A DNA stretch of 57,682 bases from Burkholderiales bacterium (GTDB taxonomy: Bacteria; Pseudomonadota; Gammaproteobacteria; Burkholderiales; Burkholderiaceae_C): the NCBI GenBank assembly GCA_016192425.1, contig JACPUE010000032.1, forward strand, positions 1-57,682, given 5' to 3'. The notes under the pieces are model-generated. The model saw nothing but the letters and a program-made list of their open reading frames with translations. It ran no database searches and was not told the DNA's origin. Made by a program: the position numbers and the translations under genes. Position 1 is the stretch's first letter. Each line of letters begins with the position of its first letter. Shown one piece after another: positions 9,811-39,382 of this stretch.

Positions 9811-9832
9811 GGCGCCTCAGGGGGGTGTTTCA
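9811..9832 (-). repeat. Family B 3'-end repeat, fragment B1 (after dsbD)
   Basis: On the minus strand the dsbD-like stop TGA (9832-9830) runs directly into AACACCCCCCTGAGGCGC, the conserved head of the family B element. The rest of the element is missing; unrelated sequence leads into hemE. The head also resembles the one after flgK upstream of the C run (TTGAAATGAAACACC here, CTGAAATGAAACAACACC there). Confidence 0.65.
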
Positions 9833-12052
9833 TTTCAACCCCGCCAGCGCCGTGCGCAGCTCCTGCACGCTGAGTACCTCGCTCAGCACCATGGGCTCGC
9901 GCCCTGGCGCCAGCAGCACATACACCGGCACGCCGTTGCGCCCCAACTGGGCCAGGGCGGCGGTGATGGCGCTGTCGCGGCGCGTCCAGTCGGCGCGCAG
10001 CAGGGTCACGCCCTTGGCCGCAAAGTCGGCCAGCACCTCGGCATCGGCCAGCGCGTTGCGCTTGTTGTACTGGCAGGTGATGCACCAGGCTGCAGTGAAG
10101 TCGATGAACACCGGCTTGCCCGCCGCCGTGAGTTCTTGCACCTGCTGGGCCGACCAGGGCTGCCATGCAGCGCCGACAGCGCCCGCAGCGGCCTGCCCCG
10201 TGGCCGCTGCCTGGGCCGGGCGGGTGATGTGCGGCCCGATGCTGCTGGCCAGCCAGGCGCTCAAGGCCAGCAGCACCGTGGCGAGCACGGCCCGGCTGCG
10301 CCCGCGCAGCGTGAGCGCCCACACCACGCTGCTGCCCGCCACCAGCAGCGCCAGCAGCGCGCCGGCGCCGTCGATGCCGCTTTGCTGGCCCAGCACCCAC
10401 ACCAGCCAGACCACCGTGGCAAACATGGGAAACGCCATGGCACGGCGGAAGGTATCCATCCAGGCGCCGGGGCGCGGCAGCCAGCCCGCCACCGCAGGCA
10501 CCCAGGCTGCCAGCAGGTAGGGCAGGGCCATGCCCAGGCCCAGTGCGCCAAACACGGCCAGCGCCTGCAGCGCAGGCAGGCCCACGGCAAACCCCAGCGC
10601 CGCCCCCATGAAGGGCGCGGTGCAGGGCGAGGCAATGGCCACCGCCAGCATGCCGGTGAGGAATGCGTCTGCCGCCGGGTGGCGTGCCTGCAGCGTGGCT
10701 ACGCTGCTGGGCAGGAATTGGCCGAACTCGAACAGGCCTGCCAGGTTCAGCCCGATCAGGGTGAACAGGCCCGCCAGCAGTGCCACCACGGCGGGCGACT
10801 GGAGCTGAAAGCCCCAGCCCAGCTGCTCGCCCGCCGCGCGCAGCGCCAGCAGCAGCCCGCCCAGCGCCAAGAACGACAGCACCACTCCGGCCGTGTAGGC
10901 CAGGCCGCCCACACGCTGGGCGCGCAGGTGGTTGCCGTGGCGGGCAAAGCCCATGAGCTTGATGGCCAGCACCGGAAACACGCAGGGCATGAGGTTGAGC
11001 AGCATGCCCCCCAGCACACCGCCCAGCAAGGCCAGCCACAGCGATCGGCCCGCTGGTGCGGGGGCGCTGGCGGGGGCTTGTGTGCGTGCCTGGTTGGCCT
11101 GCAGCGCTGCGGCCAGGGCGGGGGGGATTTCGGCGGCAGCGGCGGACTTCCAGCCGCCTTCGACCTTGGCCACCATGTGCCAGCCCTTGGGGCTGCTGGG
11201 CGTGGCGGGTGCGGCCTGCGGCGCTGGGGCCAGCACCAGGGGCAGTTGCGCGGGGCTGGCGCCGCGCTCGGGCGATAGCGGCAGGTTGGCCGTCCAGGTG
11301 TTGCCTTCCCAGGCCTGCGTCCAGTCCTTGCCTTCCACGGCGGCCGGGATGAGTACGGCCGGGGTTTCGGGAAACACCTCCAGTGGCTGGCCGCGCAGTG
11401 CCTCGGGCAGCCCTTGCACGCGCAGCCGCAGGCGCTCGCCCTCCACCCGCACGCTGGCGCTGCCCTGCAGCGGCACGGGCTGTGCGGCCTGGGCCTGCGC
11501 AAAGGCGGCGGCGTGCATGGCGATGGTGCCCTGGGTGGGCAGGTCCAGCACAAAGCGGCCCTCTTCGGGAATGCACTCCACACGGCAGGCCAGCCAGCTG
11601 GCGTGCAGGCCTATGCGCACCGTGCCCATGCCGCCAGGGGCGGGCGGCAGTTCCTGGGCCATGCGCAGCGGCGCCACCAGCAGCACATCGCCGTCAAAGC
11701 CGTAGTTGGCCAGGCGGCCAATGCGGATCAGGCGCGGCACGGGCCAGGCGATGTCGCCCGCGTCCATGCCGGGGGGCAGCTCCCAGCGCAGTTCGGTGGG
11801 CAGGCCGGAGTCGCCGGGGTTTTTCCAGTAGGTGTGCCAGTCTTTCTGGTGCTGCAGGTGCAGGCCCAGCCAGACGAGCTTGCCCGGCCCCAGGCCCTCG
11901 GGCGCATGGGCGATGAGTTCGGCGCGCACCTGCGGGCTGCTCGCCACGCTGCTGTCGGAGGCAGAATATTTGAGGTTTAATTGGGCTGTAGCGCTTATGG
12001 GTAAAGCGCTAGCAGCTATCAAAATAAGAGCAAAAAACCAGCGGGGCAGCAT
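9830..12052 (-). CDS. DsbD-family protein-disulfide reductase (thiol:disulfide interchange protein)
   Basis: Inner-membrane reductant conduit carrying electrons from cytoplasmic thioredoxin to periplasmic disulfide proteins or cytochrome c maturation. The 740 residues comprise a signal peptide (1-24), a periplasmic N-terminal domain, a polytopic core with the two membrane cysteine segments LMPCVFPVLAIKLMGF and SPCTAPFMGAALGF, and a C-terminal thioredoxin domain with WCITC at about 656-660 (FIDFTAAWCITCQYN). Start ATG 12052; upstream in-frame codons have no protein-like composition. Bases 11970-12031 of the coding sequence are a family A repeat that encodes most of the signal peptide (LILIAASALPISATAQ). 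Which DsbD/ScsB-type subfamily applies is unsure. Confidence 0.92.
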   Translation of the reverse strand: MLPRWFFALILIAASALPISATAQLNLKYSASDSSVASSPQVRAELIAHAPEGLGPGKLVWLGLHLQHQKDWHTYWKNPGDSGLPTELRWELPPGMDAGDIAWPVPRLIRIGRLANYGFDGDVLLVAPLRMAQELPPAPGGMGTVRIGLHASWLACRVECIPEEGRFVLDLPTQGTIAMHAAAFAQAQAAQPVPLQGSASVRVEGERLRLRVQGLPEALRGQPLEVFPETPAVLIPAAVEGKDWTQAWEGNTWTANLPLSPERGASPAQLPLVLAPAPQAAPATPSSPKGWHMVAKVEGGWKSAAAAEIPPALAAALQANQARTQAPASAPAPAGRSLWLALLGGVLGGMLLNLMPCVFPVLAIKLMGFARHGNHLRAQRVGGLAYTAGVVLSFLALGGLLLALRAAGEQLGWGFQLQSPAVVALLAGLFTLIGLNLAGLFEFGQFLPSSVATLQARHPAADAFLTGMLAVAIASPCTAPFMGAALGFAVGLPALQALAVFGALGLGMALPYLLAAWVPAVAGWLPRPGAWMDTFRRAMAFPMFATVVWLVWVLGQQSGIDGAGALLALLVAGSSVVWALTLRGRSRAVLATVLLALSAWLASSIGPHITRPAQAAATGQAAAGAVGAAWQPWSAQQVQELTAAGKPVFIDFTAAWCITCQYNKRNALADAEVLADFAAKGVTLLRADWTRRDSAITAALAQLGRNGVPVYVLLAPGREPMVLSEVLSVQELRTALAGLK
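11970..12031. repeat. Family A coding-embedded palindromic repeat, copy A2 (dsbD signal peptide)
   Basis: The clearest copy. On the plus strand AGCGCTT, six bases, AAAGCGCT forms an inverted repeat at 11990-12010, followed by GCTATCAAAATAAGAGC at 12015-12031. The sequence is AT-rich inside a G+C-rich gene. Read on the minus strand it encodes the hydrophobic core and cleavage region of the DsbD-like signal peptide. Copy A5 in the sugar operon has the same two palindromes with the same spacing. Confidence 0.8.
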
Positions 12053-12182
12053 ACAAGGGTGCGGGAGGCGTGCGGGTGGGAGCGGTGCGCAGGGGCTTTG
12101 GTTCCACGGTGTGGGCGTGGGGCAGCAACTCTGCTGCCCATATTGTGACGGCATGCCACGGCAACGGCTGCATTGCCCTACC

Positions 12183-13037: not shown

Positions 13038-13062
13038 TCTCATCGCCCTGCGGGCACGGCTG

Positions 13063-15217: not shown

Positions 15218-15247
15218 TGTGTCGCACGGTGTGCCCTGATGTGGGGG

Positions 15248-16471: not shown

Positions 16472-16567
16472 GGAAAGCGCCTCAAAACGTTGGTGGCGCT
16501 ATGGTCTGCCCGCAAGCTTTGGTTTTGCTTTGGACGCCGCCGCCTGTGGGGCGGACGGATCAATGGT

Positions 16568-17239: not shown

Positions 17240-17307
17240 GGGGCGCGATTGTGGCGGCGCAGGCGGCTGCCGCCTTGTCGCGCAAGCGACGGGGGTGCCG
17301 CGTTGCC

Positions 17308-18273: not shown

Positions 18274-18283
18274 GGGGGTGCCA

Positions 18284-19839: not shown

Positions 19840-19877
19840 GCGGGCTCCTGGGCGTGCAGTGGGCGGGCTGTGGGTTC

Positions 19878-20741: not shown

Positions 20742-20780
20742 GGCTGGGCTCCTGGGCTGGCTGTGCGTGGCGTTTGTGGG

Positions 20781-21965: not shown

Positions 21966-22070
21966 TGCATTCATCTCCAGTTGAGGGTGCGCTGAGGGTG
22001 GGCGCAGGTTCGGGGTTGCGGCCATCGTGTGGCCTGCCTGCGAGCTTAACCTTGGCGCGGGAATTTGGAT

Positions 22071-23012: not shown

Positions 23013-23037
23013 GGGTTTTTGTCGGTGGATTGCATGC

Positions 23038-23103
23038 ACTGTAGGTCCAATTTCCGCTACAGTTCCAGCACAGTTTTTCTGACAAAACACCGAACTGTGC
23101 TGG
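23038..23103. promoter_or_regulatory. Operator candidates in the eamA-mocR divergent promoter
   Basis: Two nested inverted repeats lie in the 116-base gap. ACTGTAG at 23038-23044 pairs with CTACAGT at 23057-23063. CCAGCACAGTT at 23065-23075 pairs perfectly with AACTGTGCTGG at 23093-23103. Arms centred 28 bases apart suit a dimeric MocR/GntR-type regulator. The AT-rich spacer probably contains the promoters. Confidence 0.6.
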
Positions 23104-23128
23104 TGCACAGAGCGGTACACCTTGCACC

Positions 23129-24592
23129 ATGCTCATCCGCACGTCCCACCGCACCCTGACCGACCAGCTCGCCGAGCGTTTTGCCGAGCGCATCCGTTCG
23201 CGCCTGCTGCCTGCCGGTTCGCGCCTGCCCTCGGTGCGCGACTGTGCGCGCCAGCAGGGCGTGAGCCCCTACACCGTGGTGGCCGCCTACGACCAGTTGC
23301 TGGCCCAGGGGCTGGTGGAGGCGCGGCGCCAGCGCGGCTTCTATGTGCGGGATTTGACGCAAAATAAGGCTGCAGGGCAATATGGACAAGCGCAAACAGC
23401 TATCAAAACAATAGCAAATGAAGTGGCCCCGCCGGAGCCCTTTCCGCTGCCCTCGGGCGCGCAGATCCATGCCACGGCGCTGATCCGGGGCATGTTCCAC
23501 CAGGGCTCGGGCAAGCCCCAGCCCGGTGCGGGCGTGCTGCCGCCGCAGTGGCTGGAGGAGGCGCGCTTCATGCCGGCAGCGCTGCGCAAGATCACCGCCG
23601 GGCGTGCGGTGGCCTCGGGCTCGCTGAACTACGGCGAGCCGCAGGGGGATGCGGGCCTGCGCCAGGTGCTGGCGCGACGCCTGGCCGACCTGAACATACC
23701 GGTGCGCCCCACGCAGATCGTGACCACCGTGGGCGCCACGCAGGCGCTGGACATCGTGAGCCGCACGCTGCTCAAGGCGGGCGATCCGGTGATGGTCGAG
23801 GAGCCCGGCTGGTCGGTGGAGTTTGCCCGGCTCGACGCCCTGGGCATGCGTGTGCTGCCCGTGCCGCGCCGTGCCGAGGGCCCGGACCTGGAGGTGATGG
23901 CGCGCTACTGCGAGGCCCATGCGCCCAAGCTGTTCGTCAGCGTCAGCGTGCTGCACAACCCGACCAGCTACTGCCTCACGCCCGGCAGTGCGCACCAGGT
24001 GCTGCAACTGGCGCAGCGCCACGGCTTCCATATCGTTGAAGACGACACCTACAGCCACATTGCGCCGGAGCACGCCACGCGCCTGTGCGCGCTCGACGGC
24101 CTGCAGCGCACCATCTACGTGAGCGGCTTTGCCAAGATCCTGGCGCCGAGCTGGCGCGTGGGCTACCTGGCTGCGCCTGCCGACCTGTGCGAGCGTTTGC
24201 TCGACACCAAACTGCTGTCCACGCTGACCACGCCCTCGGTGCTGGAGCAGGCCATGGCGCTGTGCATAGACCAGGGCCAACTGCGCCGCCACGCCGAACG
24301 CATGCGCATGCGCCTGGCCCAGGCGCGCGAGCGCAGCGTGCGCCTGGCGCTGCAGGCGGGCTGCCGTTTCGCGGCCGACCCGGCAGGCCTGTTCGGCTGG
24401 GTGGACACTGGGGTGGACACCGACGCACTGGCCCAGCGCATGCTGGACGAGGGCTACCTGCTCGCCCCCGGCGCCCTGTTCCACGCCAGCCGCCAGCCCA
24501 GCACGCTCATGCGCATCAACTTCAGCACCACGCAGGACGCCGCCTTCTGGGCCGTGTTCGAGCGCATCCGAGGCCAGATGCCCTCTGTATAA
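23129..24592 (+). CDS. MocR/PdxR-type regulator (GntR HTH fused to aminotransferase domain)
   Basis: 487 residues. A winged helix-turn-helix (about 1-75; SRLPSVRDCARQQGVSPYTVVAAYDQL, ending RGFYVRD) is followed by a linker and an aminotransferase-like domain with the PLP lysine in YVSGFAKILAPSWRVGYL. Such proteins sense PLP-amino-acid adducts and usually regulate a divergent transporter or catabolic gene. Here that points to the eamA-aminotransferase-PhzF operon. The linker region (residues about 77-97, QNKAAGQYGQAQTAIKTIAN) is encoded by a family A repeat. ATG 23129 is chosen. A family B repeat begins at the TAA stop. Confidence 0.93.
   Translation: MLIRTSHRTLTDQLAERFAERIRSRLLPAGSRLPSVRDCARQQGVSPYTVVAAYDQLLAQGLVEARRQRGFYVRDLTQNKAAGQYGQAQTAIKTIANEVAPPEPFPLPSGAQIHATALIRGMFHQGSGKPQPGAGVLPPQWLEEARFMPAALRKITAGRAVASGSLNYGEPQGDAGLRQVLARRLADLNIPVRPTQIVTTVGATQALDIVSRTLLKAGDPVMVEEPGWSVEFARLDALGMRVLPVPRRAEGPDLEVMARYCEAHAPKLFVSVSVLHNPTSYCLTPGSAHQVLQLAQRHGFHIVEDDTYSHIAPEHATRLCALDGLQRTIYVSGFAKILAPSWRVGYLAAPADLCERLLDTKLLSTLTTPSVLEQAMALCIDQGQLRRHAERMRMRLAQARERSVRLALQAGCRFAADPAGLFGWVDTGVDTDALAQRMLDEGYLLAPGALFHASRQPSTLMRINFSTTQDAAFWAVFERIRGQMPSV
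23357..23418. repeat. Family A coding-embedded palindromic repeat, copy A4 (MocR linker)
   Basis: Carries GCTATCAAAACAATAGC at 23399-23415 preceded by a diverged AGCGC box and CTGCAGGGC. It is an AT-rich run in a G+C-rich gene and sits precisely between the DNA-binding and aminotransferase domains, with the frame kept. Confidence 0.72.
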
Positions 24593-24712
24593 AGTGACAC
24601 CCCCCTATGTCGCTTCGCTCCTTCCCCCCGCTCTCGCAGTGCTGCGCACTGCGGGCAGGGGGACGCTCCCAGCGCGGCGGGGCGGCCCTTGCGCGGGAGC
24701 CCTGGCGTGGTC
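24590..24712 (+). repeat. Family B 3'-end repeat, copy B2 (after mocR)
   Basis: Begins at the TAA stop of the MocR gene: TAAAGTGACACCCCCC. Hairpin 1 is GCAGTGC-TGC-GCACTGC (24636-24652), flanked by C- and G-runs that can extend the stem. Hairpin 2 has arms GCTCCCAGCGC (24665-24675) and GCGCGGGAGC (24691-24700). The element ends with CCCTGG. It points in the direction of mocR transcription and may act in 3'-end formation. Confidence 0.75.
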
Positions 24713-24915
24713 CGCGTCCGTGTCACGCATAGGCGGTGGTGCGAGCGGTTCGCAAAATTGATTCGGTAGAGGAGCAATAACATCAAACAACACCCATGTC
24801 CTTAGCAGGGGGCTGCCAGGGCACCCGTGGATCGGGCTTTGCCCGGCCACCGGGTGCGTCCCCCTGCCCGCAGTGCGCAGCACTGCGAGAGCGGGGGGAA
24901 GGCGCCGAAGGCGAC
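24593..24915. other. Convergent mocR-HDOD spacer filled by two opposed family B repeats
   Basis: The gap consists almost wholly of copies B2 and B3 in inverted orientation. A 42-base stretch of B2 (24624-24665) is a perfect reverse complement of B3 (24857-24898), so the DNA could form a large cruciform. Between them, about 24713-24805, is unremarkable sequence with no gene. Confidence 0.7.
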
Positions 24916-24934
24916 TCAGGGGGGTGTTCTTTTA
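24806..24934 (-). repeat. Family B 3'-end repeat, copy B3 (HDOD gene end)
   Basis: In minus-strand sense: ACTAAAAGAACACCCCCCTGA, then the C/G-run hairpin with GCAGTGC-GCA-GCACTGC in plus-strand reading at 24870-24886. Hairpin 2 has arms GCACCCGTGG (24821-24830) and CCACCGGGTGC (24847-24857) around an inner GGGC-TTT-GCCC. The last codons and the stop of the HDOD gene lie inside the element. Confidence 0.75.
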
Positions 24935-26148
24935 GTACCCGCCAGGGTGCGCAGCAGGATGCGGTTGATGTCCTCCTGCTCCATCTCGTGGTCCGCGCAG
25001 AGCTGGCGGATCGCGCTGGCGTCGTCGGTTTCCAGCGCGCGGGCCAGCTGCAGGCAGGGGGCGTAGGGGCCGTGGTTCATGACGAGGGCGTCGAACACCC
25101 GGTCCGACAGGGGGATGCGGTGCAGGATGGTGCCCAGGGGCTCGTCCAGCAATTCGTCCAGCTGCGACAGCAGCCCGCACAGGTACACCTCGCTGCGCAG
25201 TTCGTGCTGCAGGCCGGGTTCTATCAGCTGCTCCATCAGGCGTGCGCGCAGCACCATGGATTCGCGCACCGGGCGCAGGTCGGCCTCGGTGCTGGCGTGC
25301 GGGAGCTGGTCGGACAGCCACTTGCGGATCGAACCATAGCCCATCATCACCAGGCCGCGGCGCAAAGAATCGATGCCCGTGCGCAGGCCCAGCGATGCCG
25401 AGTTGGTATAGACCATGAAGCGGTAGGCCAGCAGCGGGTCTTCGCCCAGGATGCCCTCGAACACGTCCAGCGACTGCTCGGCGTCTATGGCCTTGAGCAG
25501 CTTGAGGATGGTGGCGTGCGCTGGCTGCATGGGCTGGTGGCGCAGGCTGTAGAGCACATCCTCCGTGGGCCAGCCGGCCAGGGCCACGGCGCGGTGCGCG
25601 TCCAGGCAGTGCGACATGAGCGCACGGCTGGCAATGTCTTCGTACATCTGCCCGTCGATCACCGGGCTGGCGCCATGCCCAGGGGGGTGGGGTGTGCCGG
25701 GGCGGGGCGGGGGGGAGGCCTGCAGCGCTGCCATGGCTTCTTCGGGCTGCAGGCTCAGCAGGCTGTTGTCAAAGCAGCGCGCCACCTCGGCATCGGGCAG
25801 GCGGCCCAGCGGGCCGCGCCATACCAGCCGCAGGCCGCGCTGGTGGGCGGCCTGCACCTGGGCAAACAGGGCCGAATCGCCCAGCCACTGGCCGGGCACC
25901 AGAATCCAGGGGCTGCCGCGCGGTGCGTGTTCCAGCAGGTCGCTCAGCAACTGGTGCGACAGCGGCGAAATGAGCAGCGGCGGGGAACTGGCAGACCACA
26001 TCTCCTGCAAGGTGCGCAGCAGGTGGGGGGCGTCCATGCCCACGGCGGCGGCTTCGCGCACGTACAACTGCACGCCGGCCAGCGAACGCGCTGCGCCCCA
26101 CAGGGGCCGGTAGCCCAGAACGAGACTGCCAAGGACGGATTGCACCAT
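24916..26148 (-). CDS. HDOD-domain protein (EAL-remnant/HDOD, YuxH-like)
   Basis: 410 residues. The N-terminal part resembles a degenerate EAL-like domain without catalytic EAL residues (SVLGSLVLGYRPLWG, LVWRGPLG). From about 200 onward is an HDOD domain (LLKAIDAEQSLDVFEGILGE, then DPLLAYRFMVYTNSA, LRRGLVMMGYGSIRKWL), an HD-fold relative lacking the HD metal pair. Such proteins act in signalling and motility control. Its ATG overlaps the flgL stop by one base (TGATG), so it is translationally coupled to the hook-filament junction gene. The C-terminal residues KRTPP and the stop are encoded by a family B repeat, suggesting the original end was replaced. Confidence 0.85.
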   Translation of the reverse strand: MVQSVLGSLVLGYRPLWGAARSLAGVQLYVREAAAVGMDAPHLLRTLQEMWSASSPPLLISPLSHQLLSDLLEHAPRGSPWILVPGQWLGDSALFAQVQAAHQRGLRLVWRGPLGRLPDAEVARCFDNSLLSLQPEEAMAALQASPPPRPGTPHPPGHGASPVIDGQMYEDIASRALMSHCLDAHRAVALAGWPTEDVLYSLRHQPMQPAHATILKLLKAIDAEQSLDVFEGILGEDPLLAYRFMVYTNSASLGLRTGIDSLRRGLVMMGYGSIRKWLSDQLPHASTEADLRPVRESMVLRARLMEQLIEPGLQHELRSEVYLCGLLSQLDELLDEPLGTILHRIPLSDRVFDALVMNHGPYAPCLQLARALETDDASAIRQLCADHEMEQEDINRILLRTLAGTKRTPP

Positions 26149-27401: not shown

Positions 27402-27435
27402 GTCTGGCTCCTATTTTCCATGGTGTTTGCACCAC

Positions 27436-27680
27436 CTGCAACGCATGAAACCGGCGCGCCCCAGGCCAGGACTCCCGCGCAAGGGCCGCCAGCATTCCCA
27501 CGTGCGGGCGCCGGGAGCGTCCCCCTGCCCGCAGCGCATGAAACCGGCACGCCCCAGGCCAGCGGCCACCGTGCAAGGGCCGCCCCGCCGCACCGGTGGC
27601 GTCCCCCCTCCCGAATCGCGCAGCGATTCGAGAGAGGGGGGAAGGCGCGAAGCGCCTCAGGGGGGTGTTGTTTCATTTCA
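27436..27680 (-). repeat. Family B 3'-end repeat, tandem copies B4a/B4b between flgK and flgL
   Basis: In minus-strand sense the flgK stop begins TGAAATGAAACAACACCC, then a hairpin AGGCGC-TTC-GCGCCT (27657-27643), hairpin 1 GAATCGC-TGC-GCGATTC (27629-27613) and hairpin 2 with arms at 27600-27590 and 27574-27565 (GCCACCGGTGC, GCACGGTGGC). A second, partial copy follows, with hairpin 2 arms at 27518-27508 and 27480-27471. Both tails read CCAGGCC...GGCGCGCC or GGCGTGCC, then GGTTTCATGCG. This is the only copy inside a flagellar operon and could attenuate flgL. Confidence 0.75.
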
Positions 27681-29624: not shown

Positions 29625-29634
29625 GTGCTTCTCC

Positions 29635-30540: not shown

Positions 30541-30541
30541 G

Positions 30542-31684: not shown

Positions 31685-31796
31685 GGTGTTGATTGTGGGA
31701 GCGATGCGGGATTTCTAAAACCCGAAAAGCGGTTTCTTCACCACGCAATTGCTGTATCCGCTGCACGCCAGACAGGCGGATTTTCCCAGCAAAAAC

Positions 31797-31831
31797 AGCA
31801 CGTAGCGCCCTGTTTACGGGCGCTACGTGCT
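31797..31831 (-). terminator. Perfect 14-bp hairpin downstream of flgH, terminator-like
   Basis: AGCACGTAGCGCCC (31797-31810), a 7-base loop, and GGGCGCTACGTGCT (31818-31831) form a perfect stem. On the minus strand it is followed by GTTTTTGC, so it looks like an intrinsic terminator within the flg operon between flgH and flgI. Its GCGCTAC core also resembles family A repeats, so it may be a relative of those rather than a dedicated terminator. Confidence 0.6.
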
Positions 31832-31834
31832 ATG

Positions 31835-32072
31835 AACCTAGAAACCGCAGTTGACCGCTTGCAACCCTTGGGTAAGCCGCTTGAAATCTGACCTTGTGCC
31901 GCTTTGGAACGTTCACCTTCAGGGTGAGAGCGCTATGCACCCGCCAGCACCGCGCTCGGCGCGCCATGCGGCGTTGTTCCTCCTTGCGCACAGGAGTGCG
32001 CTGCGTCGTCACGCCTTGCCTGGCACGCCGATCACGGCACTGGCAGGCGCATCCAACTGCGGTTTCTAGGTT
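31835..32072. mobile_element. MITE-like element with 19-bp perfect terminal inverted repeats
   Basis: AACCTAGAAACCGCAGTTG at 31835-31853 is exactly repeated as its reverse complement at 32054-32072. The 238-base body has no transposase. Size, perfect termini and position in a gap of an otherwise tight operon fit a non-autonomous transposable element. A clear target-site duplication is not visible. The parent insertion sequence is not in this window. Confidence 0.75.
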
Positions 32073-32096
32073 GAATGGCAGAGCGTGTGGGTGCGC

Positions 32097-32795
32097 TCAG
32101 AAAGGCGTGACGGTGTTGAAGAAACGCCCCATCCACCCCATGGCCTGGGCTTCACTCTGCTCGCCGCGTCCGCGCGACTCCACGCGCACATTGGCCACCT
32201 GGGTCGAATTGACGATGCTGCCCGGCTGCATCATGCGTGGATCCACCGTGCCCGAGAAGCGCAGCACGTCCACGTTCTGGTTGACACCGATCTGCTTTTC
32301 CCCCGCCACCACCAGATGGCCGTTGGGCAGTACATCGATGACGGTGGCGGTGATCGATCCTTCAAACTTGTTGGCGCTCTCGGTGCCGCCTTTTCCGGCA
32401 AAGGTGTTGGAAGACTTGGCGCCCAGGGCGGCTTTGTCGGTCAGTGTCTTGCTGGTGAATGGGAAGGCCGAGATGCCTGCGGACACGTCCGAACTGCGGT
32501 CCACCGTGGAGGTGGACTTCTGGCTGGCGGTGATGTTCTCGACGATCTGGATGGTCACCAGGTCGCCCACCATGCGTGCACGGCGGTCTTCAAACATGGG
32601 GCGATAGCGCGCCTGCTGGAACAGGCTTCCCGTGGCGGGGCCTGCGGGCATGCGCTGCTGGGTGCCCAGAGCGGGCGGCGTGGTGGGCAGGACATCCACG
32701 GGCGGCGGGGGCGACAGGCTGGCGCAACCGGCGAGCCAGGCGGCGCTCAGCGCTGCGGCCAGGCTGCCTGCGCAGGTGCGGACAAGGCGGATCAT
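32097..32795 (-). CDS. flgH: Flagellar L-ring lipoprotein FlgH
   Basis: Outer-membrane lipoprotein of 232 residues that forms the L ring. The signal sequence ends in the lipobox AWLAGC. Conserved parts are FEDRRARMVGDLVTIQIVENITASQKSTS and LPNGHLVVAGEKQIGVNQNVDVLRFSGTVDPRMM. It begins 14 bases after flgG. The mobile element downstream leaves its stop intact, 25 bases away. Confidence 0.97.
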   Translation of the reverse strand: MIRLVRTCAGSLAAALSAAWLAGCASLSPPPPVDVLPTTPPALGTQQRMPAGPATGSLFQQARYRPMFEDRRARMVGDLVTIQIVENITASQKSTSTVDRSSDVSAGISAFPFTSKTLTDKAALGAKSSNTFAGKGGTESANKFEGSITATVIDVLPNGHLVVAGEKQIGVNQNVDVLRFSGTVDPRMMQPGSIVNSTQVANVRVESRGRGEQSEAQAMGWMGRFFNTVTPF

Positions 32796-32809
32796 GGGGT
32801 GGCTCCGGT

Positions 32810-33592
32810 TCAGATCTGGCTGAGTTTGGCCAGCATCTGGTCGCTGGTCTGGATGGCTTTGGAGTTCATCTCGTAGGCGCGCTGGGTCTGGATCATGTTG
32901 ACCAGCTCTTCCACCACGTTGACGTTGGAGGACTCCAGGAAACCCTGCTTGATGATCCCCAGGCCGTTGGTGCCGGGGGTGCCCTGCTGCGGCTGGCCCG
33001 AAGCGGCCGACTCCTTGAACAGGTTCTGCCCCACGGGCTCCAGCCCTGCGGGGTTGATGAAGCTGGCCATCGCCAGGCTGCCCAGCTGCTGCGGCTGGGT
33101 GTTGCCCGACACGATGGCCGACACCACGCCGTCGGCGCTGATGCTGACGCTGGTGGCCCCCTGCGGCACGGTGATGCCGTTGGCCACGGGCAGGCCGCTG
33201 GAGGTGACCAGCCGGCCTTGCGAGTCCACCTGGAATGAGCCGTCGCGCGTGTATCCCAGGGTGCCGTCGGGCATGGTGACTTCGAAGAAGCCGTTGCCGT
33301 TGATGGCCACGTCCAGGCCGTTCTTGGTTTCCTGCAGCGAACCCTGGGTGAAGTTGCGGCTGGTGGCCACGGTGCGCACGCCCAGGCCTAGGTGCAGGCC
33401 GGTGGGCAACTGGTTCTGCTCGGTGGTGTTGGCGCCCACCTGACGCAGGTTCTGGTAGATCAGGTCTTCGAACACCGCGTTGTTGCGCTTGAAGCCGGTG
33501 GTTGAGACGTTGGCCAGGTTGTGCGAGATCACGTCCAACTGCGTTTGCTGGGCGGTCATGCCAGTCTTGGCAATCCAGAGCGAGTTCATCAT
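32810..33592 (-). CDS. flgG: Flagellar distal rod protein FlgG
   Basis: 260 residues, the standard FlgG length. N-terminal SLWIAKTGMTAQQTQLDVISHNLANVSTTGFKRNNAVFEDL and C-terminal SNVNVVEELVNMIQTQRAYEMNSKAIQTSDQMLAKLSQI are textbook. It polymerises as the distal rod. An 85-base gap separates it from flgF, longer than most gaps of the operon, with nothing recognisable inside. Confidence 0.98.
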   Translation of the reverse strand: MMNSLWIAKTGMTAQQTQLDVISHNLANVSTTGFKRNNAVFEDLIYQNLRQVGANTTEQNQLPTGLHLGLGVRTVATSRNFTQGSLQETKNGLDVAINGNGFFEVTMPDGTLGYTRDGSFQVDSQGRLVTSSGLPVANGITVPQGATSVSISADGVVSAIVSGNTQPQQLGSLAMASFINPAGLEPVGQNLFKESAASGQPQQGTPGTNGLGIIKQGFLESSNVNVVEELVNMIQTQRAYEMNSKAIQTSDQMLAKLSQI

Positions 33593-33677
33593 GATGGGTT
33601 CCTCTGTCGTATCAATGGGTCGTTGCCTGTGGGACTGGCGCGGCCGAAGCCAGCGGACGCCGCTTGGGGGTTCATCT

Positions 33678-34418
33678 TCAGCCGTTCATGCCCAGCAACT
33701 GGCTGGCGGTCTTGTCGTTGGTTTCGGCGGTTTGCAGCAGGCGCATCTGCTGCTCGAATTGGCGTGAGGCGGCGATCATGCCCACCATGCACTCGACGGC
33801 GTTCACGTTCGAGCCCTCCAGCGTGCCGCTGACCATGCGGGCGTTGGCGTCGTTGGGGATGGGCTCGCCCGAGGTGGCGCGGAACAGCCCGTCGTCGCCG
33901 CGCTTGAGCGGGTCTTCCGCCGCAGGTGTCGCCAGCTTGATGCGGCCTACCGCCTGCGGGCGCTGCCCGCCGGTGCGTGCCGTCACTGTGCCGTCGGAGC
34001 CCAGCGAGACCTCGGCCCCTGGAGGGATGTCAATGGGTGCGCTGCCGTCGGACAGCACGGGCAGACCGGTGGAGGTCAGCAACTGGCCCGTGGCCGACAC
34101 CTCGAACGAACCCGCACGCGTGTAGGCCTCGGTGCCGTCTGCTGCCTGCACTGCGAACCAGGCGTTGCCCATGGCCATGGCGTCCAGGCTGCGGCCTGTG
34201 CGCTGCGCGGGGCCAGCGGTGTCCCGGTGGCCCGAGGTGGCCTCCAGCGCAAACACCCGGGTGCTTGCGCCGCCGCCCTGCAGCGGCACCGAACGGAAGG
34301 TGGACATCTCGGCGCGGAACCCCGGCGTGGACGCATTTGCCAGGTTGTTGGACAGCACGGCCTGCCGATGCGCGGCCGCGTTCGCGCCGGTCATGGTGGT
34401 GTAGATGATGCGGTCCAT
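33678..34418 (-). CDS. flgF: Flagellar proximal rod protein FlgF
   Basis: 246 residues. N-terminal MDRIIYTTMTGANAAAHRQA with NNLANASTPGFRAEM, middle AMGNAWFAVQAADGTEAYTR, and C-terminal EGSNVNAVECMVGMIAASRQFEQQMRLLQ mark FlgF. It sits between hook gene flgE (31 bases) and flgG in the canonical order. Confidence 0.97.
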   Translation of the reverse strand: MDRIIYTTMTGANAAAHRQAVLSNNLANASTPGFRAEMSTFRSVPLQGGGASTRVFALEATSGHRDTAGPAQRTGRSLDAMAMGNAWFAVQAADGTEAYTRAGSFEVSATGQLLTSTGLPVLSDGSAPIDIPPGAEVSLGSDGTVTARTGGQRPQAVGRIKLATPAAEDPLKRGDDGLFRATSGEPIPNDANARMVSGTLEGSNVNAVECMVGMIAASRQFEQQMRLLQTAETNDKTASQLLGMNG

Positions 34419-34449
34419 GGCGGGGGCTCCGGTTCAGGGGGCGGCGTGC

Positions 34450-35724
34450 TCAGCGCAGGTTCACCAGGGTGGACATCACCTGGTCCTGGGTCTTGATGGT
34501 CTGCGCGTTCGCCTGGTAAGTGCGCTGCGCCGTCATCATGTTGACCAGCTCGGCGGTGAGATCGACGTTGGAATCCTCCAGCGCACCCGAGCGCAGGGCG
34601 CCGAAGTTGCCATCGCCGGGCGTACCGGTCACGGGCTGGCCCGACTCAAAGGTTTCCACCCAGTTGTTGTTGCCCACGGCCTGCAGGCCTTGGGGGTTGC
34701 GGAAGTTGGCCAGGGCCACCTGCCCCTCGGCACGGGTCATGCCGTTGGAGTAGCGCGCCATGATCATGCCGCTGGCCTCGACGTTGATGCCCGTGAGTTC
34801 CCCCGAGGCGTAGCCGTCCTGGCTCAGATCGGACACGGCGAACTTGCTGCCGAACTGGGTCGCGCCGTCCAGGTTCACCAGCACGTTGAAGGCCGGCAGG
34901 TTGTTGGGGTTAGGGGGTGAAGGATCCACCGAAAGCGATAAGCCAAAACCTGTCGCGGGTGCCGGGGCCGCAGGTCCTGTGATGGCACCATTGTTGTCGA
35001 AGGTGATGGTGCCTACCGATGTCGCGGTGGGGTCGAGGGAGTCATACACATCCCACTGGTTGTCGGTGGCGGTCTTCTGGAAGTACAAGGTCACTGGGAC
35101 GGCCACGCCCTGGCTGTCGTACACGTTGATCGAGGTGCCGTAGGTTGCTCGTGGTGTTGCGGGAATGGCCGGTGTGGGTGGTGGGCCGGGCGTGGCGGGT
35201 ACGCCTGCGGCGTCGTAGGCCCTGGCGTCCAGGTTGAATTCGGCGGTGACCGTGGTGGTCTGCTTGGCTGCAATCGGCTGGGCCGAGGGGAAGTTCAAGG
35301 GGCCTGGTACGGTGGCGGTGCGCAGCCCGGTGGCCGGGTCGATCGGATAGCCAAGCACTTTGGCGCCGCTGTTGGTCTTGAGGTCGCCGTTCTTGTCGAG
35401 CTTGAAATTGCCCGCACGCGTGTAGGCGGCCGAGCCATCGGGTTGCTGCAGCATGAAGAAGCCGCTGCCGTTGATGGCCACGTCCAGCGTGTTGCCGGTG
35501 ACGGTGAGGTTGCCCTGCGTGAACTGCTGTGCAACTGCCGCCACCTGCACGCCGATACCGGCGTTGTTGCTGCTGGCGCCTCCGATGGCGGAGGCCACCA
35601 TGTCGGCAAACTCGGCACGCGAAGCCTTGAAGCCCGTGGTGTTGGCGTTGGCGATGTTGTGGCCAATCACGTCCAGATTTTTGCTGGCGGCGTTGAGGCC
35701 TGAAAGCCCTTGTTGGAATCCCAT
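34450..35724 (-). CDS. flgE: Flagellar hook protein FlgE
   Basis: 424 residues; polymerises into the hook. N-terminal GFQQGLSGLNAASKNLDVIGHNIANANTTGFKASRAEFAD and C-terminal LEDSNVDLTAELVNMMTAQRTYQANAQTIKTQDQVM are conserved. The central surface region includes a Pro/Thr-rich stretch near residue 175-190 (PATPGPPPTPAIPATPRATY), which is low-complexity and likely variable. It lies 27 bases after flgD, its capping protein. Confidence 0.97.
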   Translation of the reverse strand: MGFQQGLSGLNAASKNLDVIGHNIANANTTGFKASRAEFADMVASAIGGASSNNAGIGVQVAAVAQQFTQGNLTVTGNTLDVAINGSGFFMLQQPDGSAAYTRAGNFKLDKNGDLKTNSGAKVLGYPIDPATGLRTATVPGPLNFPSAQPIAAKQTTTVTAEFNLDARAYDAAGVPATPGPPPTPAIPATPRATYGTSINVYDSQGVAVPVTLYFQKTATDNQWDVYDSLDPTATSVGTITFDNNGAITGPAAPAPATGFGLSLSVDPSPPNPNNLPAFNVLVNLDGATQFGSKFAVSDLSQDGYASGELTGINVEASGMIMARYSNGMTRAEGQVALANFRNPQGLQAVGNNNWVETFESGQPVTGTPGDGNFGALRSGALEDSNVDLTAELVNMMTAQRTYQANAQTIKTQDQVMSTLVNLR

Positions 35725-35751
35725 GGTGTGCTCCTGAAGTCGTGAAGAGGA

Positions 35752-36417
35752 TCAGAGGATGGCTTTGATGCCGCTGTAGGTGGCGGTACTGCCGCCTTCC
35801 AGCTGCAGGTACAGGGTGCCGCTGTCCATGCTGACGGCGCTGACCTTGTCCTGCATCAGCGCGGTGGACGACACGGCGGTCTCGCCATTGGCCGCCAGCA
35901 CCTTGAAGCGCAGCGGGGTGGCGCCCGAGTAGCTGGAGGCGTCCCAGTCGAAGTTGTAGCGCCCGGCTTTGAGGGAGCCCATTTCCACGGTGCCCACTTC
36001 CTTGCCGTTGGGGTCGAGCACCTGCACGGTGACCGTGGCAGCGGAGCCTGCCAGGTCGAAGGCGCCGCCCGCCTTGTGGCTGGTGCTGTCGATAGACATC
36101 CTGTTGCCCTCCACCAGCACCTGGCGGCCCACCATGCTGCCGGCCTGCATCAGCTGCTGTGCGGCAAACTGGTTCATCATGCCCTTGACCGTGTCGTTGA
36201 GCTGCTGGATGCCGGTGACCGTGTTGATCTGCGCGATCTGCGAGGTCATCTGTGCGTTGTCCAATGGGTTCATCGGATCCTGGTTGTTGAGCTGCGCCAC
36301 CAGGAGCTTGAGAAAACGATCCTGCGCATCCTGGGTGGTGTTGGCGCCCACCTGGCTGGTGCTGCTGCTGGCGCTGGAGGCGGCCTTGGTGGCGGCGGTG
36401 TTGGAGATCGTGGTCAT
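35752..36417 (-). CDS. flgD: Flagellar hook-capping protein FlgD
   Basis: 221 residues. FLKLLVAQLNNQDPMNPLDNAQMTSQIAQINTVTGIQQLN is the FlgD N-terminal signature; the rest is the FLG_D/FN3-like hook-cap fold with VQVLDPNGKEV and GRYNFDWDASSYSG. ATG 36417 gives the usual short, Ser/Thr/Ala-rich N-terminus; longer upstream reading is only the opposite-frame shadow of flgC/flgB. It lies 17 bases after flgC. Confidence 0.96.
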   Translation of the reverse strand: MTTISNTAATKAASSASSSTSQVGANTTQDAQDRFLKLLVAQLNNQDPMNPLDNAQMTSQIAQINTVTGIQQLNDTVKGMMNQFAAQQLMQAGSMVGRQVLVEGNRMSIDSTSHKAGGAFDLAGSAATVTVQVLDPNGKEVGTVEMGSLKAGRYNFDWDASSYSGATPLRFKVLAANGETAVSSTALMQDKVSAVSMDSGTLYLQLEGGSTATYSGIKAIL

Positions 36418-36434
36418 GGTGGTTTCCCGAGGGC

Positions 36435-36839
36435 TTATTGCCCAATCTGCAGCGTCTTGAGCAGCAGCGACTTGGCCGTGTTCATGACTTCGACGTTGTT
36501 CTGGTACGAGCGCGAGGCCGAGATCATGTTGACCATCTCGTCCACGGCATTGACGTTGGAGTGCGTCACATAGCCCTCGGCGTCCGCCGATGGGTGGCTG
36601 GGGTCGTGTACGCGGCGCCCCGGTGTTTCGCTTTCCTTGATGGCGGATACGCGCACTCCGGCGGCGTTGTCCGGTCCCATGGCCTGGGTCTGGAACACCA
36701 CCTGGCGCGCCTTGTAGGCCTTGCCGTCGGGGCCGGCCACGGCATCGACGTTGGCCAGGTTGCTGGCCACCACGTTGAGGCGCTGGGACTGCGCACTGAC
36801 CGCGCTGCCCGAGACGTTGAAGATGGAGAACATCGACAT
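36435..36839 (-). CDS. flgC: Flagellar proximal rod protein FlgC
   Basis: 134 residues, normal. N-terminal FSIFNVSGSAVSAQSQRLNVVASNLANVDAVAGPDGKAYKAR and C-terminal YVTHSNVNAVDEMVNMISASRSYQNNVEVMNTAKSLLLKTL are diagnostic. It follows flgB by 24 bases. Confidence 0.97.
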   Translation of the reverse strand: MSMFSIFNVSGSAVSAQSQRLNVVASNLANVDAVAGPDGKAYKARQVVFQTQAMGPDNAAGVRVSAIKESETPGRRVHDPSHPSADAEGYVTHSNVNAVDEMVNMISASRSYQNNVEVMNTAKSLLLKTLQIGQ

Positions 36840-36863
36840 GGCGAAACTCGCTTTCTGCCAGCA

Positions 36864-37289
36864 TCACTGGCCGGTGATGGCGCTGAGCATGGTCTTGGCC
36901 TGGCCATTGAAGAAGCGCAGCGTGGCCTCGTAGCGCACGGAGTTGTCCACAAAATTGGCGCGTTCGCGATCCATGTCCACGGTGTTCTGGTCCAGTGATG
37001 GCTGCGTCTGCACCGTGTACCCCAGCTTGCCGTTCTGGCTGCTGGGCAGGGTGGTGGAAAGGGCAAAATGCCGCGTGTCGGTGGCTGCGGCGGTGCCGCC
37101 CGTGGCCGCCATGGCGGGGGACTCGGAACCCGTGGCAGCACGCAGCGCCTCGCTGAAATTCATGTCCCGGCCCACATAGCCCGGGGTATCGGCGTTGGCG
37201 ATGTTGCTGGCAATGACGCGCTGGCGCTCGGCACGCAGCACCAGGGCCTTGCCTTGGAAATCGAGCCGGTTCGTCATCTTGTCTAGCAT
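36864..37289 (-). CDS. flgB: Flagellar proximal rod protein FlgB
   Basis: 141 residues. N-terminal QGKALVLRAERQRVIASNIANADTPGYVGRDMNF and C-terminal DRERANFVDNSVRYEATLRFFNGQAKTMLSAITGQ match FlgB. ATG 37289 has GAGG upstream and gives the family length. First gene of the minus-strand flg operon; the promoter must lie in the 259-base divergent gap to flgA. Confidence 0.96.
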   Translation of the reverse strand: MLDKMTNRLDFQGKALVLRAERQRVIASNIANADTPGYVGRDMNFSEALRAATGSESPAMAATGGTAAATDTRHFALSTTLPSSQNGKLGYTVQTQPSLDQNTVDMDRERANFVDNSVRYEATLRFFNGQAKTMLSAITGQ

Positions 37290-37548
37290 GGGGACCTCGC
37301 ACCACGGATTGCACGGTGCCGGAGTGTCCAGGCGGACTTCCGGCATGGCCTGATTATGGAAATCCGCCACTTTTTCTAAAGCGAAAAGAGCATGGGTATG
37401 GGCGCGCAATTTGCCGCTTTGCCCAGCACTGGTGCGCATACAGTGCTCCGTAGTGTTCAAGTCACAGCGCAGCCGGTTCCAAGGCTCCGATGAATCCCAT
37501 GCTGGCGGTGCTGCGCACGCCGTGCAGGCCCACTGCAGGAGAACCGCC
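37290..37548. promoter_or_regulatory. Divergent flgB-flgA control region
   Basis: A 259-base gap from which flgB-L and flgA run apart. It is the most AT-rich stretch nearby around 37355-37395, with CTAAAGCGAAAAG at 37376-37388. A related motif occurs upstream of flgI and flhB. I could not see a clear sigma-70, sigma-54 or FliA promoter, nor a certain FlhDC box. Confidence 0.45.
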
Positions 37549-38286
37549 ATGCACCCATTCCATGTTTTTTTCCGGGCCTCCATGCGGGGGTATCCCCGGC
37601 CTTGGCTGGCCTTGCTGGCCTGGGGGTTGCTCGTGTCGCAGGCCCATGCCCAGGCGGACTGGGGCCAGGTCGCACAGCGCTGGGCCGATGACGCACTGCG
37701 CAGCAGCGCACTGACTGAAGCTTCCCCGTTGCGCCTGGAGGTCACGGTAGGGTCGCTGGATCCCCAACTGCGCCTGGCGCCTTGCGCACGGGCGGAACCC
37801 TATCTGCCTGCCGGGGGGCGGCTGTGGGGGCGCACGCGCCTGGGGTTGCGCTGTATCGAGGGGGCTACGCGCTGGAATGTGTTTCTTCCCGTCACTGTCA
37901 AGGCCTTCGGGCCAGCCTGGGTGCTGGCCGGCAATGTCGCCTCAGGGGCGGTGCTGACGGCGGCGGACGCGGTACAGGCCGAGGTTGATTGGGCCGCATT
38001 CCCGTCGCCGGTACTGGCTGACCCCTCGCTGTGGGTCGGACAGGTGGCCGCCCAGCCGCTGCAGGCAGGGCAGCCCCTGCGCCAGTCCATGGTCAAGGCG
38101 CCGCAGTTGTTTGCCTTTGGTGCCCAGGTGCGGGTGCAGGCCCAGGGGCCGGGATTTGCCATCACGTCGGCGGGGCAGGCCATGTCTGCCGGGGCTGTGG
38201 GTCAGACTGTGCGCGTGAAGCTTGATAATGGCAGAATAATTCAAGGCATTGTTCTGCATGATGGAACGATAAGCGCCCAACTCTAG
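37549..38286 (+). CDS. flgA: Flagellar basal body P-ring assembly chaperone FlgA
   Basis: Periplasmic chaperone for P-ring formation, 245 residues. A signal peptide (ALLAWGLLVSQAHAQ) precedes the FlgA domain; the SAF-like part includes VLAGNVASGAVLTAADAVQAEVDWA and QPLQAGQPLRQSM, and the C-terminus has GQTVRVKLDNGRIIQGIVLHDGTI. ATG 37549 follows AGGAG at an ideal distance. It begins the short plus-strand flgA-flgM-flgN group. Confidence 0.94.
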   Translation: MHPFHVFFRASMRGYPRPWLALLAWGLLVSQAHAQADWGQVAQRWADDALRSSALTEASPLRLEVTVGSLDPQLRLAPCARAEPYLPAGGRLWGRTRLGLRCIEGATRWNVFLPVTVKAFGPAWVLAGNVASGAVLTAADAVQAEVDWAAFPSPVLADPSLWVGQVAAQPLQAGQPLRQSMVKAPQLFAFGAQVRVQAQGPGFAITSAGQAMSAGAVGQTVRVKLDNGRIIQGIVLHDGTISAQL

Positions 38287-38307
38287 GTGTTTTTTGGGAA
38301 ATACCGC

Positions 38308-38334
38308 TAAAGTCTGCGTCCAACGGGTCGAAAA
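38308..38334 (+). promoter_or_regulatory. FliA (sigma-28) promoter candidate for flgMN
   Basis: TAAAGTCT (38308-38315), an 11-base spacer, then GTCGAAAA (38327-38334). Compared with the enterobacterial consensus TAAAGTTT-N11-GCCGATAA the -35 box differs at one position and the -10 box at two, with exact spacing. It lies 45 bases before flgM, a class III gene in other bacteria. Confidence 0.65.
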
Positions 38335-38378
38335 CATTGCTACCGGGCCCTGTGTTGCCAGTGCCCTAGGAGCAAGCG

Positions 38379-38714
38379 ATGAAAATTGGACAAACACCGG
38401 AACTGCCAGGCGGTCTCTCGCCTGGTGCTGCGGCCAAGAACCAGGGCAAACCTGCGCCTGCCCCCGCAAGCACAGGCGCTGCTGCGGCAGGCAATGCGGC
38501 GGCAGCCGTGGCATCGGCCGGGGTGCCCGTCATTCTTTCCAAGGCTGCACAGGGCGTGGACACCACTGCTCGCACCCAAGGCGATTTCGACGCAGGCAAA
38601 GTCAAGGCCGTGCGCACGGCCATTGAGAACGGTACCTTCAAGGTCGATGCCGAGGTGGTGGCCGACAAAATGCTGGCCAACAGCCAGGAATTCCTCTCCC
38701 GCACCCGGGTGTGA
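38379..38714 (+). CDS. flgM: Anti-sigma-28 factor FlgM
   Basis: 111 residues. MKIGQTPE at the start and the C-terminal FliA-binding part DFDAGKVKAVRTAIENGTFKVDAEVVADKMLANSQEFL identify FlgM. The N-terminal half is Ala/Pro/Gly-rich and probably disordered, as suits export through the hook. It blocks FliA until the hook is complete. Its gene has a FliA promoter candidate, giving feedback. Confidence 0.93.
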   Translation: MKIGQTPELPGGLSPGAAAKNQGKPAPAPASTGAAAAGNAAAAVASAGVPVILSKAAQGVDTTARTQGDFDAGKVKAVRTAIENGTFKVDAEVVADKMLANSQEFLSRTRV

Positions 38715-38825
38715 GCACCCATCAGCCCGCTGGCCGGGCTGCAGCGGCGCGAGGCTTTCATTCGGCGTAGCCAGGGACGCAACCTTCCTCAGCACGGATG
38801 CCCTGCTCGCAATACACTCCAGCCC

Positions 38826-39176
38826 ATGACACCCGAAGCCGCGCTCCAAGCCGTTGAACAGCAGCTCGAAGAAATCTCGGCCGCCCTTGTGGCGGCCGAT
38901 CCTTTGGTGCTGGAGCAATGCAGCGCCCAGTTGCGCACAGGCCTGGACGCTTTGGTTCAAGCGGCGCGCAGCCTGCAGGGCCGTCCCTGGCCCGAAGCCT
39001 TGCGTCCCCGCCTGCAGGCGGTGAGCAACCGGCTTGCCATGCAACGTGAACAGCTTGCCCGCCTGGGCGCGCTGGTGGACCGGCAGGTTGCATCCATCCT
39101 GCCCCCCGCCGAACCAACCCCCACCTACGGCCAGCCGGGTTCCCAGGCCGCACGCATCTACCGCTCGACTACTTGA
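38826..39176 (+). CDS. flgN: FlgN-family flagellar export chaperone
   Basis: 116 residues, largely helical with a heptad-like pattern (AVEQQLEEISAALVAADPLVLEQCSAQL). Position after flgM, size and helical composition fit FlgN, the chaperone for FlgK and FlgL. Sequence similarity to enterobacterial FlgN is weak, so the name rests partly on context. The stop is followed at once by family B copy B5. Confidence 0.82.
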   Translation: MTPEAALQAVEQQLEEISAALVAADPLVLEQCSAQLRTGLDALVQAARSLQGRPWPEALRPRLQAVSNRLAMQREQLARLGALVDRQVASILPPAEPTPTYGQPGSQAARIYRSTT

Positions 39177-39312
39177 AGGGGAACACCCCCCTGAGGCGCC
39201 TTCCCCCCCTTTCTCGAATCGCTGCGCGATTCGGGAGGGAGGACGCTCCCGGCGCGGCGGGGCGGCCCTTGCGCGGGAGCCCTGGCCTGGGGCGCGCCGG
39301 TTCCACGGCTCG
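39174..39312 (+). repeat. Family B 3'-end repeat, copy B5 (after flgN)
   Basis: Starts at the flgN stop: TGAAGGGGAACACCCCCC, then TGAGGCGCC. The first small hairpin is missing. Hairpin 1 is GAATCGC-TGC-GCGATTC (39216-39232); hairpin 2 has arms GCTCCCGGCGC (39245-39255) and GCGCGGGAGC (39271-39280); the tail is CCTGGCCTGGGGCGCGCCGG. It fills most of the gap between convergent flgN and fliA. Confidence 0.78.
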
Positions 39313-39382
39313 CGGACAATACGACCTGTTCTGGAGCAACTGGCATGTTGCTCAGGCAGATGATGGCAAGGGCCGCTTCGCC

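Follow-up and report, generated by a model that had tools for sequence, protein, structure and literature searches.

ERIC/RU, Correia and other repeats resembling miniature inverted-repeat transposable elements (MITEs) are small, intergenic and able to fold, and non-autonomous elements of the IS200/IS605 insertion sequence (IS) type (palindrome-associated transposable elements, PATE) carry subterminal hairpins, lack long inverted ends and keep a fixed orientation to a short target, with similar short sequences at both borders. Part of these IS200/IS605-type traits is described in PMC8266576, according to which TnpAREP proteins cleave at CT. Among repetitive extragenic palindromes (REPs), ends of the GTAG type often supply a TAG stop codon (PMC3733652). 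Small bacterial repeats are usually placed loosely "near 3' ends", and in Escherichia coli 446 of 4,072 predicted REPs (about 11%) lie within 15 nt of a stop codon, such REPs being said to stall ribosomes (PMC12306157). Here, a repeat termed family B is analyzed in a 57,682-nt stretch of a Burkholderiales genome (assembly GCA_016192425.1, contig JACPUE010000032.1, positions 1 to 57,682, forward strand), which is called the window throughout. A first-pass annotation of the window had described five sense copies of the head (A)ACACCCCCC, usually followed by TGAGGCGC, at 0-15 bases from a stop codon, and all five have been located.

The findings make it fairly likely that the hairpin repeat of family B is mobile, dispersed and non-autonomous, and that it inserts at the ends of genes with a single orientation, probably at (C/T)TG(A) sites. 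Judged by empty sites in sister species, it is an insertion. No repeat with the tie to stop codons seen in family B came up in a literature search of PubMed Central.

Placement at stop codons

In the 3.67-Mb genome, covariance model R1 gave 129 matches with 150 of 6290 candidates scored, so this copy number is a lower bound and the count may be higher. After exclusion of 11 weak or partial matches (four partial ones near contig ends and seven with E-values of 3e-6 to 1e-3), 118 copies were examined against genes called by our own codon-usage script, in which start codons are rough. In 110 copies (93%) the head is placed between -24 and +12 nt relative to the end of a same-strand stop codon, the most frequent registers being -6 (21 copies), -3 (14), +1 (13), -1 (12), -9 (8) and +12 (7), the last corresponding to the TGA of the head's CCCTGAG. 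Similarly, 55 of the 58 places found by the head pattern lie at a sense stop. The chance expectation for such a position is 1.6% of all positions and strands and 7.8% of noncoding positions, and 152 of 700 noncoding YTGA sites (22%) lie at a sense stop; this null was taken from about 366 kb, mostly around flagellar genes, and observed and expected numbers were compared by binomial tests. The stops used are TGA (87), TAG (14) and TAA (9), with a TGA share not significantly above background (p = 0.13).

Behind the stop-site copies, the next gene is on the same strand in 78 cases, convergent in 28 and missing in 4. Between co-directional genes, 78 sense copies stand against 4 antisense ones, which confirms the strict polarity reported in the first-pass annotation and excludes a repeat equally frequent in both orientations. 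Every one of the 28 sense copies that face a convergent gene is found at -9 to +12 of its own stop. Only eight of the 118 copies have no sense stop within 60 nt (Table 1), and none of the eight was seen in a convergent gap. In nine of 23 tail-complete copies between co-directional genes, a stretch of 70-101 nt separates the right end from the next called start, with none on the left side; in three of the nine (c44, c73 and c112) an ATG directly follows the tail and may be the true start.

Several contigs of this draft genome end in or near copies (C59 start, C65 start, C39 end, C18 end and C12 near its end), and the element probably breaks assemblies.

Empty sites and borders

The flgK/flgL junction, which holds copy B4 in the window, lacks the element in all 12 same-genus genomes looked at (of 23). 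In these empty relatives the flgL match begins 20-68 nt after the flgK stop; in the window the two genes are 276 nt apart, the insert beginning right at the TGA and leaving AGGAG before the ATG. A sample of 16 junctions with a preserved tail was then compared with two relatives, G022 and G023, filled and empty status being judged by eye. Fourteen junctions were recovered in at least one of them; ten are without the element in any recovered relative, three are filled in both, and at one G022 has the element and G023 a remnant of the head. Of 15 randomly drawn junctions, likewise judged by eye, 11 carry the element in one relative or more and four are without it, two of which (sites 58 and 91) have unclear or changed neighbours.

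The empty targets include the tight junctions CTGAGATGG, CTGACATGG and CTGAGCCATGG and the gene overlaps CTGCCATGA (twice) and CTGGCATGA, and others lie in longer gaps (e.g., sites 26 and 60). At least eight insertions entered native gaps of 30 nt or less, three of these being ATGA overlaps. In the better-kept copies, the left side reads YTGAARTGAAACACC (or CTAAARTG...) and the right side reads AACTGA-N; the four bases are evenly represented at N (31 copies), and an ATG often comes next. The two borders are thus alike (left YTGAARTGAAAC, right AACTGA); tandem copies are joined by the same border sequence, and tandem insertion occurred behind the CTGA of another copy. These borders fit insertion at YTG(A) between like ends, with the exact cut uncertain at this divergence. 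No long target duplication was seen at the junctions compared with G022 and G023, and a duplication of 2-4 bp is possible.

Anatomy, covariation and hairpin exchange

The complete element is about 170-190 bp long and consists of a head, three hairpins (H1, H2 and H3) and a tail. In aligned copies H1 is GGCGC-loop-GCGCC and variants, preceded by a tag that is mostly TGAG or TGTG. H2 is CCCCCC...GGGGGG enclosing a variable palindrome, with a stem of about 17 bp in one folded copy, and H3 is a variable stem around the loop GGCGGGGCGGCCCTT, which is found with at most two mismatches in 38 of 58 copies, the others having longer loops. The tail is CTGGCCTGGGGCGCGCCGGTTTCATGCG...GCGGAATGGATAACTGA; a search by pattern for orphan tails, as an autonomous copy might show, gave 37 tail matches against none in the control. 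One predicted fold contains a long-range TGAAAC/GTTTCA stem. The 17-nt head ACACCCCCCTGAGKCGC, with at most one mismatch, occurs at 58 places in the genome and at none in the reversed control, which makes it the specific signature rather than the bare 9-mer; with the same tolerance the 9-mer has 27 matches in the window against an expectation of 25.4, which is no enrichment.

Pairing was assessed in two alignments. In A1, consisting of 32 copies of this genome (from the 38 of 58 with the usual H3 loop), 93.7% of cells are paired and 12 pairs changed on both sides, which none of 500 shuffles equalled. In A2, 29 distinct copies from outside the genome (of 30 aligned, 19 from other genera and 11 from named contigs) have 92.5% of cells paired and 16 two-sided pairs, again with 0 of 500 shuffles, values that are biased towards the model because the copies were aligned to it. 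Scarce G-U cells (6 of 1056 in A1, 7 of 906 in A2) would suggest pressure, or copying, at the level of DNA rather than RNA.

Alignment of 12 shared sites revealed that whole hairpins differ between species while the tail is recognisably the same (Table 1), which may reflect gene conversion between copies. Such swapping means that the similarity of copies does not date insertions, and that covariation partly reflects a limited set of self-complementary cassettes. At site 44 in G023 (C106, L203), H2 is replaced by a longer CCCCTC-rich stretch.

Distribution in other genomes

Within the genus, model matches were found in 16 of 24 genomes, ranging from 0 to 76 per relative, with 76 candidates scored per genome, a number that bounds both the zeros and the 76s. 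Matches are lacking among these 76 candidates in G002, G004, G005, G009 and four less complete genomes, while G003, G011 and G022 are rich in the element. In the family, the head pattern occurs in 45 of 299 genomes and 26 of 141 genera, in some of them once only, and the reversed control once each in three genomes. No model match was obtained in 16 genomes of other families.

The preference for sense stops extends beyond this genome. All 20 exact-head copies of other genera (14 genomes, 8 genera) and all 20 copies of the same genus (six genomes, listed model matches) lie at a sense stop; as these 40 were chosen from exact heads or listed model matches, decayed copies are under-sampled. The same was found for 9 of 9 copies on named contigs (Comamonas, Acidovorax, Simplicispira and metagenome-assembled genomes), where the search pattern already included TGA; species found to carry copies include Acidovorax soli, Comamonas granuli and Simplicispira lacusdiani. 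Of four places on plasmids, the three looked at also lie at a sense stop under the annotation of others: they mark the ends of genes for catechol 2,3-dioxygenase, thiolase and RidA (Achromobacter pestifer IncP plasmid, Comamonas odontotermitis, Diaphorobacter), and each is followed by a co-directional gene. The Achromobacter copy, on NZ_CP053984.1 (L321 1497-1641), follows the catechol 2,3-dioxygenase gene among catabolic genes of a conjugative IncP plasmid. Such a plasmid is a likely vehicle for spread past Comamonadaceae.

Copies in the window

Exact ACACCCCCC heads are present at all five window places. The first-pass annotation spoke of full or partial copies: B2-B5 have hairpins, whereas B1 is a head fragment with no hairpins downstream and no match to model R1 at E<=0.001, the hemE start lying at 9774. 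The HDOD gene ends at TGA 24918-24916, the very TGA within the CTGAG of the B3 head (inside CCCCCCTGAG). B2 and B3 form a single tail-to-tail pair between the convergent mocR-like and HDOD genes. B4 is situated between flgK (stop TGA 27680-27678) and flgL (start 27401), and B5 follows a flgN-like gene (stop TGA 39174-39176) and faces a convergent sigma-factor gene (39383-40201). Pfam supports the gene labels dsbD, mocR-like (GntR/aminotransferase), HDOD and flgK, as well as a flagellin-N protein (flgL), whereas the product labelled flgN has no Pfam match at 1e-5. B5 is missing from G022 and G023. A sixth site, overlooked in the first-pass annotation, is a deleted relict (33677-33593) that has a fuller copy in G023 and an empty 25-nt gap in G022.

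Table 1. Family-B copies in the window, copies of this genome away from a sense stop, and shared sites with exchanged hairpins
Feature	Position	Strand	Description
B1	9811..9838	(-)	head fragment TTGAAATGAAACACCCCCCTGAGGCGCC at dsbD stop, TGA 9832-9830; exact head 9828-9820
mocR-like stop codon	24590..24592	(+)	TAA
B2	24585..24735	(+)	full element, 137 bits (model R1); head 24597-24605
B3	24787..24939	(-)	full element, 113 bits (model R1); head 24927-24919
B4	27529..27680	(-)	full element, 161 bits; exact head 27668-27660
Partial tandem copy behind B4	27436..27521	(-)	hairpin-3 variant and tail, 22.6 bits
Deleted relict	33593..33677	(-)	after flgE/F/G-type gene; sixth window site
B5	39171..39315	(+)	full element, 123 bits; exact head 39183-39191
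Exception	C59:138		contig edge
Exception	C45:24449		probably spurious match
Exception	C52:62648		within long read-through open reading frame
Exception	C67:104831		antisense between co-directional genes
Exception	C51:73108		antisense between co-directional genes
Exception	C27:24775		antisense between co-directional genes
Exception	C67:143201		antisense between co-directional genes
Exception	C20:55401		between divergent genes
Site 28			different H2 in both relatives
Site 95			different H2 in G023
Site 20			different H1 in G022
Site 36			different H1, H2 and H3 loop in G022
Site 102			different H1 and H3 loop in G023

Proposed mobility and the search for a mobilising enzyme

The favoured explanation, a mobile repeat, supposes insertion in one orientation at gene ends, probably at (C/T)TG(A)-type sites. 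The left end TGAARTGAAACACCCCCCTGAG of well-kept copies brings TGA in two frames, so that the upstream gene still ends cleanly, and the right end ...ATGGATMACTGA, often followed by NATG, can directly precede the next start codon. Because the head supplies stops and the tail ends at the next start, insertions would be nearly harmless; at stop/start junctions they would cost little and be kept, even within operons. Movement may occur as single-stranded DNA, through a missing or unrecognised HUH-type or other recombinase; both targeting and purifying selection would shape the pattern, and mRNA 3' ends would be affected, if at all, secondarily. Among the roles proposed in the first-pass annotation was insertion directed to stop codons, and it is the branch favoured here given the empty sister sites, the single orientation and the left edge at the stop in other genera.

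Several observations weigh against this reading. Insertion is inferred from comparison between species. To the left of the head, conservation is weak (T at -9 in 35%, G at -8 in 42%) and the commonest 10-mer occurs in 4 of 91 copies; the right end could be recognised in full in only 31 of 118 copies, and both ends thus rest on the better-kept copies. Sites c16, c24 and c94 fit CTG| only with extra substitutions, and exact junctions are uncertain at this divergence. Five copies lie clearly elsewhere (four antisense, one between divergent genes). In their native state convergent gaps have a median of 40 nt, and in gaps so short a place next to a stop counts for less. YTGA alone predicts about 22% of copies at stops, so a short target does not explain the pattern. 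As to the enzyme, this genome has no Y1 transposase match at E<=0.001 and no IS110 transposase match, and none of 17 RAYT-like (REP-associated tyrosine transposase) loci of the genus has the element nearby (about 2-4 kb searched at each).

A single RAYT-like gene was found, by our own reading, in 17 of 19 same-genus genomes, the gene not being found in this genome or in G022, and the 11 loci whose flanks were read carry GGGGTCAGA / TCTGACCCC motifs instead of family B. A RAYT-driven REP was therefore rejected, given the missing Y1 match, the unlinked loci and the different flank motifs. An IS605-like element of G022 has, on the 3' side of tnpA, a loosely similar AACACCCC...hairpin, which was judged unconvincing; it was rejected as a parent for its weak similarity (16.7 bits). 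No parent IS with family-B ends was found in the part of the genus IS elements examined. IS110 was also rejected as the mobiliser, with no match here, 10 of 19 genus genomes positive and no correspondence to element copy number. Of the six IS110-type matches in G022, two are inside or next to family-B copies (L315 about 2100-2210; L158 about 1456-1510 reverse), as if these were a target; IS elements likewise sit in enterobacterial REPs. In G011 (C1:1537695-1548095), seven same-strand IS110-type transposase matches have an exact spacing of 1663 bp, which looks like a head-to-tail tandem array of one element. Intron-like ends were dropped for size and sequence.

Alternative explanations

It is possible, and in our view unlikely, that selection alone produced the pattern, insertion being random and the survivors lying in sense at gene ends by virtue of their stops and start-compatible tail. 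Well-kept copies indeed have stops at their ends and adjoin starts, and 3961 of 4664 YTGA sites lie within coding sequence, where insertion would be harmful. However, the 28 sense copies of convergent gaps all sit at their own stop, when a position elsewhere should be harmless there (though the gaps are short), and nine of the 23 tail-complete co-directional copies are spaced on the right only, three of which may abut a true start. Since convergent-gap copies hug their own stop and spacing is right-sided in these nine, choice of a short target plus selection is probably not enough alone; either more than YTGA is recognised, or insertion is tied to the context of the coding strand. A true specificity for the stop codon of an open reading frame on the coding strand, with the element serving as an operon-safe spacer, is about equally unlikely. 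Entry might then proceed via the non-template strand of transcribed genes or via mRNA, and the stops of the head would be matched by a tiny open reading frame of the tail (ATG GAT AAC TGA) ending one base before the next start. If so, genes would be pushed about 170 nt apart without losing translation.

A host element of the 3' untranslated region, spread by chance and kept since its hairpins protect or define mRNA 3' ends, damp translation or set the gene ratio of operons, is less likely still. It would agree with the sense-only stop position, the strong stems and the 92-94% of cells paired, and stop-proximal E. coli REPs offer a precedent (PMC12306157), by analogy with which an effect on decay or translation is possible. 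However, presence varies among sister species (11 of the 15 random junctions filled in at least one relative, four without), four genus members of 97-100% completeness have none among 76 candidates scored, a shared copy (site 6) gathers hairpin changes, and G-U pairs are rare. The 3'-end role put forward in the first-pass annotation finds no support in the sequence. A family of bidirectional transcription terminators is a highly improbable explanation. GC-rich hairpins at gene ends suggest it, as does the convergent neighbour of 28 of the 106 sense copies whose next gene is known, but this share is not raised above that of other stops (62 of 308, p = 0.18). Of 95 copies, 92 have no more than one T within the 8 nt behind H2, and of 102 copies none has more than four T behind H3. 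Within 24400-39500, a terminator scan predicted 11 sites (10.9 expected), none of them in sense at the elements there. An intrinsic terminator was thus rejected for the missing T-run and for copies within operons, the insertions occupying operon-like junctions including flgK/flgL and ATGA overlaps. Identity with the published beta-proteobacterial repeat element (BRE), or with a longer form of it, is doubtful, to much the same degree as the untranslated-region element. That repeat, known from Bordetella and Comamonadaceae, is GC-rich and looks mobile; it mostly lies between genes, at times in tandem or overlapping the ends of open reading frames (PMC3110155), and an Achromobacter plasmid carries a family-B copy. 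On the other side, BRE is about 90 bp long and often tandem (variable number tandem repeat), and the section that describes it (PMC3110155) gives no stop-codon rule.

Comparison with known systems

Against the loose placement of most small repeats, 93% of copies here and 40 of 40 sampled elsewhere are on the stop codon and in sense, a pattern that makes target choice, selection and function testable against each other. The repeated separation of closely spaced genes provides a natural experiment in operon spacing, and hairpin swapping a clear case of concerted evolution of dispersed palindromes. For terminator and operon prediction in these bacteria, family B should be masked. It was rejected as an Rfam member (none at gathering over the window, none at E<=1 over 24500-27750).

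Family B differs from MITEs of the DDE type in that its outer ends AARTGAAAC / GGATAACTGA are not inverted repeats, the inner TGAAAC/GTTTCA being the only match. Hairpins and CTGA-like borders are present, as might suit a non-autonomous IS200/IS605-type element, with junctions inexact at this divergence; neither a Y1 in the host genome nor a parent IS with these ends was found; the cleavage at CT known for TnpAREP proteins could likewise take place at its CTGA borders. REPs, bacterial interspersed mosaic elements (BIMEs) and REPINs (mobilised by RAYT/TnpAREP) are, like family B, short dispersed palindromes of variable copy number near 3' ends, with a tetranucleotide 5' of the hairpin. Unlike these 20-40 bp repeats, family B is a three-hairpin composite of about 170-190 bp with near-total sense polarity at stops and with no RAYT found here or linked in the relatives searched, and its tag is TGAG/TGTG instead of GTAG, which sets it outside the GTAG REPs. 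The CGTC-tagged REPs resemble it as palindromes near 3' ends without a dedicated transposase (PMC3733652), but have stems of 8-9 bp with loops of 4-5 nt, whereas the H2 stem of about 17 bp lies within a composite. In BRE, family B has a counterpart from the same beta-proteobacterial group that is also GC-rich, intergenic and mobile-looking, set apart, by description only, through its tandem form of about 90 bp (PMC3110155). Family B works like REP/BIME but departs from it in the defining characters of tag, size and linked RAYT. Its nearest relatives are REP/BIME-type repeats and possibly, by description only, BRE, which is the nearest named repeat found from these bacteria (PMC3110155).

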